Assembly: GCF_014207845.1 (NCBI RefSeq)
Contig: NZ_JACHLC010000003.1
Coordinates: forward strand, 391,715-455,714
Source: Chryseobacterium shigense
Lineage (GTDB): Bacteria > Bacteroidota > Bacteroidia > Flavobacteriales > Weeksellaceae
Direction: 5' to 3'
DNA length: 64,000 nt
In this document: positions 1,508 to 10,915 of the stretch, piece by piece
Position numbering within the stretch: the stretch's first letter is position 1
Layout of the letters: every line of letters begins with the position of its first letter
Program-made: the position numbers and the translations under genes
The notes under the pieces: model-generated
The model's input: the letters and a program-made list of their open reading frames with translations, nothing else
The model's database searches: none
What the model was told of the DNA's origin: nothing

Positions 1508-1591
1508 TAGAATTTGAAAATTTGAAAATGTGTTAATTTGAAAATTAATTGATGCATTCTCAAATTCTCAAATTTTCAAATTCAAAGATTT
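1508..1591 (+). repeat. intergenic hairpin repeat, family A (TTTGAAAA type)
   Basis: Imperfect inverted repeat between paaE and paaA. The left arm is built of AATTTGAAAA units, the right arm of the complementary TTTTCAAATT and TCTCAAATT units, with a short loop near 1549-1555. Outer arms match well (GAATTTGAAAATTTGA against its complement). The same sequence type recurs at 5246-5674 and 9256-9350. It leaves almost no room for a separate paaA ribosome site. Confidence 0.75.
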
Positions 1592-2530: not shown

Positions 2531-2636
2531 TAATGTAACAATATACCAATGTAAAAATGTAACAATCAATTGTCATGCTGAGTTTGTCGAAGCATTTTAT
2601 TGGTAAACCGGTACATTGATACATTGTTAAATTAAT
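2531..2636 (+). repeat. intergenic hairpin repeat, family B (TGTAACAAT type)
   Basis: Between paaA and paaB. Left part has AATGTAACAATATACCAATG; right part has the complementary motifs ATTGGTAAAC, GGTACATTGATACATTGTTA. The loop contains an unrelated short repeat with the core CATGCTGAG...GTCGAAGCAT (2571-2595). Related copies are at 3766-3846, 4312-4410, 6806-6915 and 10832-10910. Confidence 0.75.
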
Positions 2637-2924: not shown

Positions 2925-2929
2925 TTAAA

Positions 2930-3010
2930 ATAAGATTAAGAGATGTGAGATATCAGATACCAGACATTATGCCTGATCTGAAATCTAATGTCTGAAATCT
3001 GAAATCTATT
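2930..3010 (+). repeat. intergenic hairpin repeat, family C (CAGATnnCAGACATTA type)
   Basis: Between paaB and paaC. CAGATACCAGACATTA on the left pairs with TAATGTCTGAAATCTG on the right (14 of 16), with further GAAATCT units outside. The sequence is unrelated to families A and B, so a third hairpin type is used at this junction. Confidence 0.65.
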
Positions 3011-3015
3011 AAACA

Positions 3016-3765: not shown

Positions 3766-3846
3766 TCAAAATGTAACAATGTAGCAGTTTAACAATGTAC
3801 CAATAATTGCTAGACTGTTAGATTGATAAATTGGTACATTTTTAAA
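3766..3846 (+). repeat. intergenic hairpin repeat, family B
   Basis: Between paaC and paaD. AATGTAACAATGTAGCAGTT and AACAATGTACCAAT on the left face ATTGATAAATTGGTACATT on the right. It runs right up to the paaD start codon, so the right arm overlaps the expected ribosome binding region. Confidence 0.7.
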
Positions 3847-4311: not shown

Positions 4312-4410
4312 ATTCATGTAACAATATAGCAATGCAACAGTTTACCAATTATGTTCAGTATCGCATTATAATTATTGCATTGTTAGACTGGTAAATTGTT
4401 ACATTATAAC
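4312..4410 (+). repeat. intergenic hairpin repeat, family B
   Basis: Between paaD and paaG. ATGTAACAATATAGCAATGC and ACAGTTTACCAATTAT on the left face ATTATTGCATTGTTAGAC and TGGTAAATTGTTACATTAT on the right. Several base pairs are shifted but both arms are clearly complementary overall. Confidence 0.72.
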
Positions 4411-4444
4411 TAAATTAGTGGATGCAATAATAAAATTAAAAACT

Positions 4445-5245
4445 ATGTATACACAACTCGACATTGAAACGCATTTTGACGGAAAACTGAAAATTGCTTA
4501 CCTCAATCAGCCTGAAACTATGAACGCGCTTACCAAGCCATCTTTATCAGATCTGAAAGATTTCATTAAAGAATGCAGCGAAGATCCTGCGGTAAGATGC
4601 GTGGCGATTTCAGGAAGAGGAAGAGCTTTCTGTTCCGGTCAGAATCTGGATGATGCTTTCGTACAGGGTAATGTACATCATGATAACGATATCATCAGAA
4701 AAATTGTGGTAGATTACTACAATCCTTTGGTAACGGAGATCACACGTTGTAAAAAACCTGTTGTGGCATTGGTAAACGGCCCTGCAGTAGGTGCTGGTGC
4801 AATGCTGGCATTAATCTGCGACTTTGTTTTAGCAGTAGATAAATCTTATTTTGCCCAGGCATTTTCAAATATCGGGCTGATTCCTGATACGGGAGGAACT
4901 TATTTCCTTCCAAAACTATTGGGAAGACAGTTAGCTAATTATTTAGCGTTTACAGGCAAAAGATTATCCGCTGAAGAATCTAAATCTTACGGTTTGGTAG
5001 CTGAGGTTTTCACTGAGGAAGAATTCGCTCCGAAATCTATGGAAATCCTTGAAAGAATGTCAAATATGCCGACTGCAGCCATTAAATTAACCAAAAAAGC
5101 CTTTGCCCAATCTTACAGCAATACATTAAAAGAGCAATTGGAACTGGAAGGCGATTTACAACAGGAAGCCGCACAGACAGAAGATTTTATAGAAGGTGTA
5201 AACGCCTTTTTACAGAAAAGAAAACCTGAATATAAAGGGAAATAA
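4445..5245 (+). CDS. paaG: 2-(1,2-epoxy-1,2-dihydrophenyl)acetyl-CoA isomerase PaaG
   Basis: 266 residues from the ATG at 4445; a GTG at 4418 would add nine non-conserved residues. Crotonase fold with the oxyanion-hole segments GRGRAFCSGQNL and VNGPAVGAGAMLAL. GLIPDTGG carries the aspartate used by PaaG-type isomerases instead of the paired glutamates of hydratases. It converts the ring epoxide to the seven-membered oxepin-CoA. This is the only crotonase inside the operon, so the separate hydratase PaaF is not obvious here; the crotonase at 17260 has a different signature. Confidence 0.88.
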   Translation: MYTQLDIETHFDGKLKIAYLNQPETMNALTKPSLSDLKDFIKECSEDPAVRCVAISGRGRAFCSGQNLDDAFVQGNVHHDNDIIRKIVVDYYNPLVTEITRCKKPVVALVNGPAVGAGAMLALICDFVLAVDKSYFAQAFSNIGLIPDTGGTYFLPKLLGRQLANYLAFTGKRLSAEESKSYGLVAEVFTEEEFAPKSMEILERMSNMPTAAIKLTKKAFAQSYSNTLKEQLELEGDLQQEAAQTEDFIEGVNAFLQKRKPEYKGK

Positions 5246-5674
5246 TCAATTTGAAAATGAATTAATTTGAGAATTTGAAAATGAGAAATGACAAAGAAAA
5301 TATTATTGTAAATAAGACTTTCGATTTTGCATTGAATATTATTGAATTTTCAGAAGAATTATATAAGGCTAACAAATTTTCTCTAGCCAATCAGATTTTT
5401 AAATCGGGAACATCAATTGGAGCTAATGTCAGAGAAGCTCAGAATGCAGAAAGCAAGGCCGACTTTATTCATAAATTAAAAATTGCTGCCAAAGAAGCTG
5501 ACGAAACAGAATATTGGATTTTGCTGTGTTTACAGTCTCCACATTTACAGTCTCCGAAAGAAAAGATGGTGTCAGATTTAAAAGAAATTCTATTAATTCT
5601 GTCTAAGATTATTTCAAGTGCAAAGCTTAAATAATTTTCAAATTAACTCATTTTCAAATTTTCAAATTAAAATT
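5246..5674 (+). repeat. family A hairpin split by a complete four-helix-bundle gene
   Basis: The left arm at 5248-5273 (AATTTGAAAATGAATTAATT and on) pairs with the right arm at 5635-5660 at 24 of 26 positions. Between the arms lies one complete ORF (5281-5634). Its start codon comes from a second AATTTGAAAATGAG unit directly after the left arm, and the right arm begins at the base after its stop codon. At 9256-9350 a similar hairpin has only a short loop at this place, so the ORF looks like cargo of the repeat. Confidence 0.8.
5281..5634 (+). CDS. four-helix bundle protein, bS23 / 23S-rRNA-intervening-sequence family
   Basis: 117 residues from the ATG at 5281. The signature SGTSIGANVREAQNAESKAD followed by FIHKLKIAAKEADETEYW identifies the IVP/bS23 four-helix-bundle family, first known from ORFs inside 23S rRNA intervening sequences and structurally related to Avd of diversity-generating retroelements. 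Biochemical function is unknown. It interrupts the paa operon between paaG and paaH and is framed by the arms of a family A hairpin. An exact 12-bp duplication (5529-5540 and 5544-5555) gives LQSPHLQSP in the loop before the last helix. It has no evident role in phenylacetate catabolism; I infer it travels with the repeat. Confidence 0.85.
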   Translation: MRNDKENIIVNKTFDFALNIIEFSEELYKANKFSLANQIFKSGTSIGANVREAQNAESKADFIHKLKIAAKEADETEYWILLCLQSPHLQSPKEKMVSDLKEILLILSKIISSAKLK

Positions 5675-6805
5675 ATGAACGTAGGAATTATCGGTGCTGG
5701 AACTATGGGAATAGGCATTGCACAAGTAGCCGCAACAAACGGATGCAAAGTCTGGGTTTACGATGCCAATCCAAAACAGGTAGAAACAGCCACTGTAGGT
5801 TTAGAAAAAACATTAACTAAATTAGTTGATAAACAGAAAATTTCGGCAGAAAAAATGTCTGAAATGTTAGCCAATATTTCTATCGCTACAGAATTGAAAG
5901 ACTTCAAAGATTGCGAACTGATTATTGAAGCCATCATCGAAAACAAAGACATAAAAACCAAAGTATTTACAGAATTGGAAACCCATGTTTCCGAAACCTG
6001 TATCATCAGTTCCAATACATCCTCCATTTCTATCACCTCTCTGGGTGCAGAACTAAAGAAACCCGAACGTTTCATCGGAATTCACTTTTTCAATCCGGCT
6101 CCGCTGATGCCTTTGGTTGAAATCATTCCATCACTGTTAACAGAAAAATCATTAGCTGAAAAAATGTATACCCTCATGAAAGAATGGGGTAAAATGCCTG
6201 TAATTGCTAAAGATATCCCGGGATTTATTGTCAACAGGATTGCCCGCCCTTACTATGGTGAAGGTTTGAGAATTGTTGAAGAAAATATCGCAACCCCCGA
6301 ACAGGTAGACGAAGCTATGAGGACCCTCGGAAATTTCAAAATGGGACCATTTGAACTCATGGATTTAATTGGAGTTGATGTAAATTTTGCAGTAACAACA
6401 ACCGTTTACAAAGACTATTTCTACGACCCGAAATACAAACCGTCTCTGCTTCAGCAAAGAATGTCCGAAGCCAGACTTCACGGCAGAAAAACCGGAAAAG
6501 GGTTCTATAATTACGCTGAAGGAGCAGAACAACCAGTTGCTCAGAAAGATGATGCTTTATATCAGCAGATCTTTTTGAGAATTATTTCAATGCTTATCAA
6601 TGAAGCAGTAGAAGCTAAAAGATTAGGCGTTGCCAACGATGAGGATATTGAACTGGCCATGCAGAAAGGAGTAAACTATCCGAAAGGATTATTAAGCTGG
6701 GGAAAAGAAATCGGCTATTCAAAAATCTCAGAAACCCTCCAAAACCTTTACGCAGAATATCAGGAAGAAAGATACAGACAGAGCCCTTTACTTCGTAAAA
6801 TGTAA
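5675..6805 (+). CDS. paaH: 3-hydroxyacyl-CoA dehydrogenase PaaH
   Basis: 376 residues from the ATG at 5675. The open frame reaches back to 5618, but those 19 codons are the right arm of the hairpin (NFQINSFSNFQIK) and are rejected. The N-terminal Rossmann motif is GAGTMGIGIAQVAA; the active-site region SNTSSISITSL...GIHFFNPAP holds the conserved catalytic histidine; a C-terminal helical dimerisation domain follows (GPFELMDLIGVDVNFAV, RKTGKGFYNY). It oxidises 3-hydroxyadipyl-CoA to 3-oxoadipyl-CoA with NAD. Confidence 0.93.
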   Translation: MNVGIIGAGTMGIGIAQVAATNGCKVWVYDANPKQVETATVGLEKTLTKLVDKQKISAEKMSEMLANISIATELKDFKDCELIIEAIIENKDIKTKVFTELETHVSETCIISSNTSSISITSLGAELKKPERFIGIHFFNPAPLMPLVEIIPSLLTEKSLAEKMYTLMKEWGKMPVIAKDIPGFIVNRIARPYYGEGLRIVEENIATPEQVDEAMRTLGNFKMGPFELMDLIGVDVNFAVTTTVYKDYFYDPKYKPSLLQQRMSEARLHGRKTGKGFYNYAEGAEQPVAQKDDALYQQIFLRIISMLINEAVEAKRLGVANDEDIELAMQKGVNYPKGLLSWGKEIGYSKISETLQNLYAEYQEERYRQSPLLRKM

Positions 6806-6915
6806 TAAAAAAATGTAACAATGTATCAGTCTAATAATGTAACAATCATCGATCTGAGCATAGGTTAAGAGCTATTTATTGGTAAACTGTTACATTGATA
6901 AATTGTTAAATTAAA
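6806..6915 (+). repeat. intergenic hairpin repeat, family B
   Basis: Between paaH and paaI. AATGTAACAATGTATCAGTC and AATGTAACAATC on the left face ATTGGTAAACTGTTACATTG and ATAAATTGTTAAATT on the right, around a roughly 40-base loop. Confidence 0.75.
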
Positions 6916-6918
6916 AAT

Positions 6919-7332
6919 ATGACGCCGAGACAAGTTGCAGATTATATGTTCAATCAGGATTATTTTTCCCAATGGATGAATATTAAAATGATTGAAGTCA
7001 GAGAAAATTATTGTTTAATAGAGATGCCCATCAAAAAAGAAATGTTGAATGGGCTTAAAACCGTTCACGGAGGAGTTACATTTGCCTTTGCAGATTCTGC
7101 ACTCGCATTTTCATCCAACAATTCAGGAGATGCAGCCGTTGCCCTGAACTGTATCATCAATTTTACCAAAGCCGGAAAAGAAGGTGATGTTTTCAGAGCA
7201 GAAAGCATTCTTGTTAATGATACCAGGAAAACTGCGGTTTACGACATAAAGATCACCAATCAAAATAATGAACTGATCGCAAAATTCGTCGGAACTGTTT
7301 ACAAAATAGGAAAAAAAGTAACAGAATTATAA
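6919..7332 (+). CDS. paaI: hydroxyphenylacetyl-CoA thioesterase PaaI
   Basis: 137 residues, hotdog fold. The conserved HGG followed by the catalytic aspartate (VHGGVTFAFADSALAFSSN) is the PaaI signature. It hydrolyses dead-end aryl-CoA thioesters and so frees CoA when the pathway stalls. Its stop overlaps the start of the next gene by one base (TAATG). Confidence 0.92.
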   Translation: MTPRQVADYMFNQDYFSQWMNIKMIEVRENYCLIEMPIKKEMLNGLKTVHGGVTFAFADSALAFSSNNSGDAAVALNCIINFTKAGKEGDVFRAESILVNDTRKTAVYDIKITNQNNELIAKFVGTVYKIGKKVTEL

Positions 7333-8045
7333 TGAGAAATCTTATAGATTTTGGGAAATATAATAGAAGGAGAATAATTTTATCCAACGCTCAAAAACTA
7401 TCTGTGACTAATAAAGTCGTGATAGGTTTAGGCTTTTTATTGTTTGCATTTTTGATAATAAATATAAATGGTAATCCTGTCCACAATTATGTGGCTCTCG
7501 GAATAATAGTGTTAATATTTTTAGCCCAGATAATACAACTATCAATAAATGATGTTAAGCAGCTGAAACTTATAGTACCGGATTATAAGGCTAATATGCT
7601 ATCAGTAGATTGGATGCATTATAAATTAATTCATGAATATAATCTTAAAATTGGGCAGAGTGATTTAGTTAATTTAGGTTTAGAAGATTTAAATTACAAT
7701 ATGTTGATTGTTGAAGCAAATAAGCCAATAAAACCAAGTTTCAATTATAATATTCCAATTATATTGATTAGTGTAATAAGTTTGATTTTAGCAAATTATT
7801 CACCTTTATTCCAGTTTATAAAGTTAGATGGGATAAATGATCAGGCAATATTATTAGCTCTAAAAAACATATGGAAAATACTGACTATTGTTATAATTAT
7901 GTTCTTATTTATTATTTTCAGTTCATTTTATTTTTCATACATATATTATGATTCTGCTAAAGGTAAATATGAACAATATTTACAAAAAAAAGAATTAATA
8001 AATTTTTTAATATTTCACAAAAATAACCCTGAATTAAATAATTAA
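7332..8045 (+). CDS. four-TM membrane protein of unknown function inside the paa operon
   Basis: 237 residues; I do not recognise a family. Hydrophobic segments lie near residues 26-46, 52-72, 141-162 and 184-208, with a hydrophilic stretch of about 65 residues between TM2 and TM3. Base composition is clearly more AT-rich than the flanking genes, with many ATA and TTA codons, which suggests later acquisition. It is coupled to paaI (TAATG) and ends one base before the paaJ ATG. Unlike most other junctions, no hairpin repeat separates it from its neighbours. Its role in the pathway, if any, is unknown. Confidence 0.8.
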   Translation: MRNLIDFGKYNRRRIILSNAQKLSVTNKVVIGLGFLLFAFLIININGNPVHNYVALGIIVLIFLAQIIQLSINDVKQLKLIVPDYKANMLSVDWMHYKLIHEYNLKIGQSDLVNLGLEDLNYNMLIVEANKPIKPSFNYNIPIILISVISLILANYSPLFQFIKLDGINDQAILLALKNIWKILTIVIIMFLFIIFSSFYFSYIYYDSAKGKYEQYLQKKELINFLIFHKNNPELNN

Positions 8046-9255: not shown

Positions 9256-9350
9256 ATCAATTTGAAAATGAGCCAATTTGAGAATTTGAAAATATTTTGC
9301 GATGTTTTTAATTTTCAAATTGGCACATTCTCAAATTTTCAAATTAAATA
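9256..9350 (+). repeat. intergenic hairpin repeat, family A
   Basis: Between paaJ and paaY. Left arm AATTTGAAAATGAGCCAATT, continuing TGAGAAT; right arm is the complement around ATTCTCAAATT and ATTTTCAAATTGGCACATT (24 of 27 matches in the core). The loop is a short stretch near 9294-9308. This is the empty counterpart of the element at 5246-5674. Confidence 0.78.
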
Positions 9351-10831: not shown

Positions 10832-10910
10832 ATTTAAAATGCAACAATGTGAAAATGTATCATTATAACAATTGGTAAACTGTTAAATTGATACATTGTT
10901 AAATTCAAAT
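10832..10910 (+). repeat. intergenic hairpin repeat, family B
   Basis: Upstream of paaZ. AATGCAACAATGTGAAAATG and TATCATTATAACAATT on the left face AATTGGTAAACTGTTAAATT and GATACATTGTTAAATT on the right. Last member of the family inside the operon. Confidence 0.7.
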
Positions 10911-10915
10911 ACCAT

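Follow-up and report, generated by a model that had tools for sequence, protein, structure and literature searches.

Among the systems described so far, the closest to the locus considered here are the intervening sequences (IVS) of 23S rRNA genes. In the account of these elements in PMC4990558, an S23p/IVP ORF lies in a loop bounded by inverted repeats, with a 28-bp stem in Coxiella; their origin is called unclear, transposition and mobile-element hypotheses are named, and over 25 years have passed without an accepted origin or mode of spread (PMC4990558). The protein family concerned, PF05635, is described in another source as resembling Avd of diversity-generating retroelements (DGRs), and a reference title there presents one structure of the fold as five four-helix bundles (PMC10053308). 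A separate body of work deals with heptamer repeats, GGGAATC and GGGGA(C/T)T in Xanthomonas and Nostoc and TAACTGA in Beggiatoaceae, whose arrays are largely intergenic, located immediately ahead of start codons or in the gaps separating aligned ORFs; four units are preferred, and inverted pairs number 70 and 75 in two xanthomonads. The explanations put forward are G-quadruplexes or translation control, and in the main texts of both papers the terms 'S23' and 'helix bundle' are absent and no cognate gene is given (PMC4692102, PMC4679880).

The window, that is, the whole stretch of 64,000 nucleotides of Chryseobacterium shigense DNA that was analysed, contains an IVP ORF bounded by inverted repeats inside a transcribed unit, much like a 23S rRNA IVS. 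Unlike an IVS, it lies in the spacer of a protein-coding operon and not in an rRNA gene, and IVP elements here have clade-specific arrays of 7 or 8 nt together with dispersed copies that lack the ORF. The element occupies the whole spacer from the enoyl-CoA hydratase gene to the 3-hydroxyacyl-CoA dehydrogenase gene (Table 1); Pfam gives these enzyme families, and we take the genes to be paaG and paaH, as did an earlier reading of the sequence alone. The same sequence-only reading had placed the ORF in the bS23/IVP family, which holds: PF05635 (23S_rRNA_IVP) is the sole Pfam match of the gene, at E 4.1e-23 and 82.1 bits in a profile search with a cut-off of 33.8. Its nearest named relative is from Chryseobacterium oranimense (94%), and by sequence it matches 2RLD, a single entry with five chains, which together with 2GSC, the structure of the Xanthomonas gene product XCC0516, represents the solved members of the fold family found by sequence match. 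The arms, first counted as 24 matches in 26, pair at 26 of 28 positions (93%; 5248-5275 with 5633-5660), and their cross-gene arm score of 46 was reached in none of 5000 dinucleotide shuffles of both flanks, where the maximum was 37. The ATG at 5281 does lie inside a repeat unit beside the left arm, AAAATGAG, and the stop codon does abut the right arm, which begins two bases before the codon's end. The element was also rightly described as having no transposase of its own: PF05635 is its single ORF, and no transposase was found in the full-length copy, which distinguishes it from IS/MITE systems. Further, unlike in DGRs, no reverse transcriptase (RT) lies beside this Avd-like gene among the seven window genes scanned with Pfam. 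Being outside rRNA, without a transposase and without an adjacent RT, the IVP gene with its arms is therefore rated as outside the known kinds, and the open-licence literature searched yielded no paper describing arms or dispersed repeats of IVP genes other than those in rRNA.

Table 1. Features of the window (position 1 is its first letter)
Positions	Strand	Feature	Basis or remark
1508..1591	.	Family A hairpin, empty, operon spacer	
2531..2636	.	Family B hairpin, empty	Loop holds another palindrome
2925..3015	.	Empty hairpin, 7-nt family (AGATATC AGATACC AGACATT)	
3766..3822	.	Family B arrays, operon spacer	
4312..4417	.	Family B hairpin, empty	
4445..5245	+	Enoyl-CoA hydratase gene, paaG-like, upstream operon neighbour of the element	Pfam
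5248..5285	+	5' arm, family A, degenerate 8-nt units AATTTGAA AATGAATT AATTTGAG AATTTGAA AATGAG	Holds IVP start codon
5281..5634	+	IVP gene, PF05635, 117 aa, A clade	Pfam profile; 2RLD sequence match, E 4e-24
5633..5668	+	3' arm, family A units as inverted array	Arm pairing
5675..6805	+	3-hydroxyacyl-CoA dehydrogenase gene, paaH-like, downstream operon neighbour	Pfam
6806..6918	.	Family B hairpin, empty	Several relatives with family A there
9256..9350	.	Family A hairpin, empty (no IVP ORF)	Arms 9259-9293 and 9311-9345, 80% complementary, 17 nt between
10832..10915	.	Family B hairpin, empty	

The window also holds hairpins without a gene, among them the short-loop copy at 9256-9350 that had been pointed out and is indeed present. 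The spacer of the 7-nt-family hairpin carries other families in G027, G028, G044 and G055, and the spacer matching 4312..4417 is only 33 nt long and free of a hairpin in G055 and G028, a comparison from which the hairpin's ends could not be read. Within the family B hairpin at 2531-2636, the loop (about 2567-2600) contains a second palindrome of the GTCATGCTGAG...CGAAGCAT type, which looks like another dispersed palindrome; similar sequences are present in hairpin loops of several relatives. Elsewhere in the paa cluster, a 237-aa ORF without a Pfam match lies at 7332-8045, an interval that can carry a B-clade IVP instead in relatives.

Other IVP genes show that such framing is not confined to this locus. 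By eye, all seven PF05635 genes of the window's own genome have an inverted array on either side, and the array sequence differs from gene to gene; the arm score is at least 24, the threshold at which arms were called, in six of them, and 18, within the shuffle range, in L004, which has an internal stop. Their neighbours, from Pfam on the translated ends and with some of the gene names presumed, include groES-groEL, carA-carB, purC and an acyl-CoA dehydrogenase gene. The family is present in 59 of 60 genus genomes, and a non-random sample of 116 genus loci with many orthologues (the seven above, 29 of the best profile hits and 80 hand-picked) gives a median arm score of 29, with at least 24 in 91 loci, below threshold in 25 and at least 30 in 55. 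Scores of at least 24 and at least 30 were reached by 8.1% and 2.5% of 2878 mismatched flank pairs, and by three and one of 55 window genes; IVP ORFs in this sample are framed by inverted repeats more often than the window genes compared, and the usual lack of such repeats, which would have spoken against the sequence-only reading, was not what was found. In 80 of the 116 loci the observed score was reached by at most one of 100 shuffles, and cross-gene pairing exceeded any hairpin within one 60-nt flank in 91/91 armed genus loci and in 50/50 armed A-clade loci elsewhere. The arms consist of units repeated in tandem: nine groups have a 7-nt period (self-match 0.61-0.73; shuffled 0.26-0.41), and families A and B have an 8-nt period (0.57-0.67; shuffled 0.32-0.34). 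Like the reported heptamers with their preferred four units, six of 12 groups have medians of 3.9-4.3 units per arm, the other six having 1.9-3.4 (3.3 overall); unlike the GGGAATC and GGGGA(C/T)T heptamers, the arm families in the window's genus are AT-rich.

Since the 116 genus loci occupy only 23 places, relocation of IVP genes is rare and they mostly stay put. When named genomes were searched with the window protein and the best 80 of 537 loci were kept, 24 lay at paaG-paaH and the other 56 at different sites, in Mucilaginibacter, Salegentibacter, Flavobacterium and other genera. Arms are present in 50 of these 56, in 14 places (six fall below the threshold), and in 44 of the 56 they resemble the window arms at a score of at least 30, a level attained in 3% of 1400 pairings with other IVPs of the genus, 0% of 1568 phylum-IVP pairings and 1% of 500 shuffles. 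B-clade IVPs with B arms (by eye) are found in two operon spacers, thioesterase-thiolase (nine loci and one decayed copy) and carA-carB (six loci), with further B-clade loci at the former (four, L192-L195) and the latter (one, L203), and the carA-carB spacer of the own genome holds an IVP of a non-B clade with different arms. L151, a T-clade relative (68-71% identity) at a second place, has kept T-like arms. Judged from the sequences compared, arm sequence follows IVP clade and not place. The proposal that one hairpin family, A, forms the IVP unit is hence right as to the unit and too narrow as to the single family, there being one arm family per clade.

Two side observations concern these loci. 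Behind carA in L259-L264, an arm of the B element seems, by eye, to encode the last CarA residues and the stop, and comparison with the CarA end of the own genome suggests that the insertion has rewritten the end of carA. In G022, about 1.6 kb separates two IVP genes of different clades (L151 and L168, C2:2304550 and 2306166), the first having T-like arms and the second arms of the AAAGAATA type.

A long hairpin, formed by an inverted pair at the spacer ends (arm score at least 23), is present in all 59 readable paaG-paaH spacers of the 60 genomes (G056 is unreadable), in a survey without shuffle control in which families were set by patterns and, for G047, by our own reading. Family A with an IVP accounts for 17 spacers (internal stops in G019 and G035), family A with a gutted ORF for one, and families B, M and T for 20, 13 and 8; each of the four families arms an IVP clade elsewhere. 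The comparison of this junction among relatives, suggested by the sequence-only reading, gives an IVP ORF in 17 of 59 spacers, always with family A, and a hairpin in all of them, of four families. Hairpins without an ORF measure about 75-130 nt. In G045, both A arms are kept around the gutted ORF (183 nt in total), which, together with arms accompanying their clade elsewhere, supports the earlier view that hairpin and IVP behave as one unit, of which the short hairpins in that family seem to be an empty or decayed form. The decayed T-clade IVP genes of G018, G040 and G003 likewise still have T arms, and that of G035 has worn ones (by eye). On the paaH tree about 25 changes of spacer family are counted, against a mean of 31.2 and a minimum of 25 with shuffled labels, and other paa-operon spacers also switch family between close species. 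Homologous recombination could explain part of these changes; the element at paaG-paaH is mostly inherited, with losses and replacements, and no clean occupied/empty pair or target-site duplication was established in the spacers compared.

The dispersed copies of three families, A, T and B, track their cognate IVP clade only. Counted as pattern hits, which are overlapping windows of arrays and not hairpins, and with the element's own two arms subtracted, the medians are 17.5 in 16 genomes with the A clade vs 7 in 41 without, 93 in 12 with the T clade vs 7.5 in 44 without, and 66 in 19 with the B clade vs 27.5 in 40 without. Genomes with a decayed cognate IVP (three A, four T, one B) were kept apart from these two-group tests, and genes with one internal stop (A: G035; T: G057; B: G043, G051) and the B clade of G056, cut by a contig end, were counted as IVP-bearing. 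Across the 60 genomes, the AUC of family against cognate clade is 0.82 (A), 0.95 (T) and 0.86 (B), with off-diagonals of 0.24-0.66. PGLS on the paaH tree gives p 2.6e-6 (A), 8.7e-7 (T) and 5.0e-6 (B) for the cognate pairs, and none of the off-diagonals is significantly positive, the nearest being B repeats with the T clade (p 0.058). The association between A and B is negative (p about 0.001), as competition between the two for a common set of spacers would predict. Of the 22 genomes richest in T hits, however, eight lack both a T-clade IVP and any listed remnant, among them G048, G001 and G059 with 110, 99 and 73 pattern hits.

The elements share a setting, and their reach extends beyond the genus. 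With the neighbour taken as the longest ORF within 1.1 kb, the IVP gene is co-directional with both neighbours in 112/116 genus loci, 26/28 phylum loci and 76/78 loci with both flanks readable in the scan with the window protein (best 80 of 537), compared with 132/222 gene triples drawn from the window plus ten further 20-kb segments of its own genome. Annotated plasmid loci are co-directional in 10/14 and not in 4/14, so that co-direction is a tendency. PF05635 is matched in 232 of 296 sampled phylum genomes (220 above the cut-off) and in 115 of 139 genera; at the 28 phylum loci, which are best hits, the arm score is at least 24 in 16 and below in 12, against 5.4% of 756 mismatched pairs. Moreover, 22 plasmid records have a match, most of them cyanobacterial, and arms are present in 14 of the 16 plasmid loci fetched (12/14 cyanobacterial, one Azospirillum and one Gemmatirosa, the last GC-rich), compared with 12.9% of 240 mismatched flank pairs. 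The distance from upstream arm to start codon exceeds 110 nt in L399, L401 and L413. Arms were not called at the Nostoc HK-01 and Pseudanabaena loci, and in Pseudanabaena the 7-nt arrays flanking the gene share one orientation. Four Riemerella records, the second Calothrix brevissima record and one Fischerella record were left out. The T-clade IVP had no match in a phage collection. On cyanobacterial plasmids, some IVP genes are situated within cas operons, at cas6-cas4 (L401, L402) and cas10-cmr3 (L403), a position that could simply account for the co-occurrence of IVP and cas genes mentioned in the literature (PMC3936711).

Overall, we favour, at a probability of roughly 0.6, a reading in which the IVP gene and its arms would form a mobile unit, the empty hairpins would be its cognate non-autonomous copies and the IVP would be the specificity factor. 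It builds on the observed arms, their matching to clades, the link of copy number to the cognate IVP, relocation together with arms, spacer replacement and decay; the movement itself is deduced from comparative sequence data. The ORF and its two arms would be one element, a small four-helix-bundle protein being encoded in the loop of a pair of inverted arrays, whose units measure 7 or 8 nt and whose number of units per arm has family medians from 1.9 to 4.3. Such an element would settle, mostly in sense, in spacers of co-directional operon genes, and from its position and orientation the IVP could be read from the operon's own transcript. The copies without an ORF share these spacers, where one family takes the place of another, and for the three families counted they are commonest where the cognate IVP is present. 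The IVP may recognise its cognate array as nucleic acid and may supply the specificity for copying or inserting hairpins, with strand breakage probably coming from a partner protein or from host replication and repair; a ring of four-helix bundles facing the tandem array is our guess at the mode of reading. To our knowledge, no catalytic function is known for IVP, and this counts against the mobile-unit reading, as do the T-rich genomes that lack a T-clade IVP, the rarity of relocation, the loci below the arm threshold, the plasmid loci that are not co-directional, the direction of the arm mismatches described below and the failure to establish a target-site duplication or clean empty site. 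The pairing of IVP and arms would be analogous in logic to REPIN/RAYT, where dispersed palindromes go with a cognate gene that has the same repeats on its flanks; in contrast to that system, the protein is of the unrelated PF05635 family and not an HUH (Y1) transposase, the arms are arrays of 7 or 8 nt, and a transposase is not known.

Alternatively, the IVP could be a resident regulator that binds cognate hairpins in operon mRNAs, its own included, and acts on stability or translation, the dispersed hairpins being its regulon. The place of the hairpins in operon spacers next to start codons would suit such a role, as would family counts that follow the cognate IVP and IVP genes that are mostly inherited in place. 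Yet a regulon whose family changes about 25 times among 59 genomes at paaG-paaH, and which varies in other spacers too, would have to turn over fast, and the arms relocate with the gene. Moreover, the 91 armed genus loci have 62 G-U vs 93 A-C mismatches (p 0.016), opposite to the direction expected for selection on a sense-RNA stem; the 41 empty paaG-paaH hairpins have 57 vs 46, and covariation among 31 paaG-paaH orthologues is weak (5/28 pairs changed on both sides). As there is no sense-strand G-U excess, selection on an RNA stem was rejected and is not claimed here, and the result leans to recognition as DNA. The regulator is the best of the alternatives, and we hold it to be unlikely.

In size and setting the hairpins are similar to REPINs. 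They might accordingly be moved by a conventional transposase (HUH/RAYT, DDE) or by an RT encoded elsewhere, with the IVP as passenger or accessory, a role for which the likeness of PF05635 to Avd, described as an essential partner in DGR retrohoming, could be cited (PMC10053308). Against such an enzyme stand copy numbers that are specific to the IVP clade, and, as to an RT acting in trans, the sole PF00078 match of the own genome, L067 1222-2814 (C1), on another contig than the window, is closest to the defence RT Drt8 (PADLOC, E 1.5e-157). We regard this explanation as improbable.

A slightly poorer account would have the spacer hairpins as older host features into whose existing loops IVP genes were inserted. 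It draws on the hairpins present in 59/59 readable paaG-paaH spacers, with an IVP or not, and on the further palindrome inside some hairpin loops. Random insertion into loops would, however, leave arms that follow the site, and the arms follow the IVP clade across genera and places (44/56, vs 0-3% in the controls), for which reason it was rejected. Finally, that composition and slippage produced chance inverted repeats and short arrays in AT-rich spacers is scarcely credible, for although slippage can lengthen arrays and the flanks are indeed AT-rich, the window arm score was reached in 0/5000 shuffles, mismatched flanks scored in 8.1% and only 3/55 window genes are armed, the Gemmatirosa arms are GC-rich, and each family has one sharp period, 7 or 8.

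Returning to the mobile unit of IVP and arms, its link to the rRNA IVS remains an analogy, and the element may represent a broader class of which the rRNA IVS are special cases. In its widest form, which we put forward tentatively and at somewhat less than even odds, IVPs would be an unrecognised mobile class of several phyla, in which a ring-forming four-helix-bundle protein reads tandem arrays with units of 7 or 8 nt and causes cognate hairpins to spread among operon spacers; the heptamers of Nostoc, Xanthomonas and Beggiatoaceae would then be copies without an ORF, the rRNA IVS copies that landed in rRNA, and the IVP-cas link ordinary spacer insertion. The pairing of a protein with its cognate repeat makes the origin of the IVS and the heptamer repeats testable together. 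It also suggests that the family annotated as 'S23 ribosomal protein' or 'four helix bundle protein' belongs, at least largely, to mobile elements, and that such elements, from a family matched in 232/296 sampled phylum genomes, may keep rewriting operon spacers.
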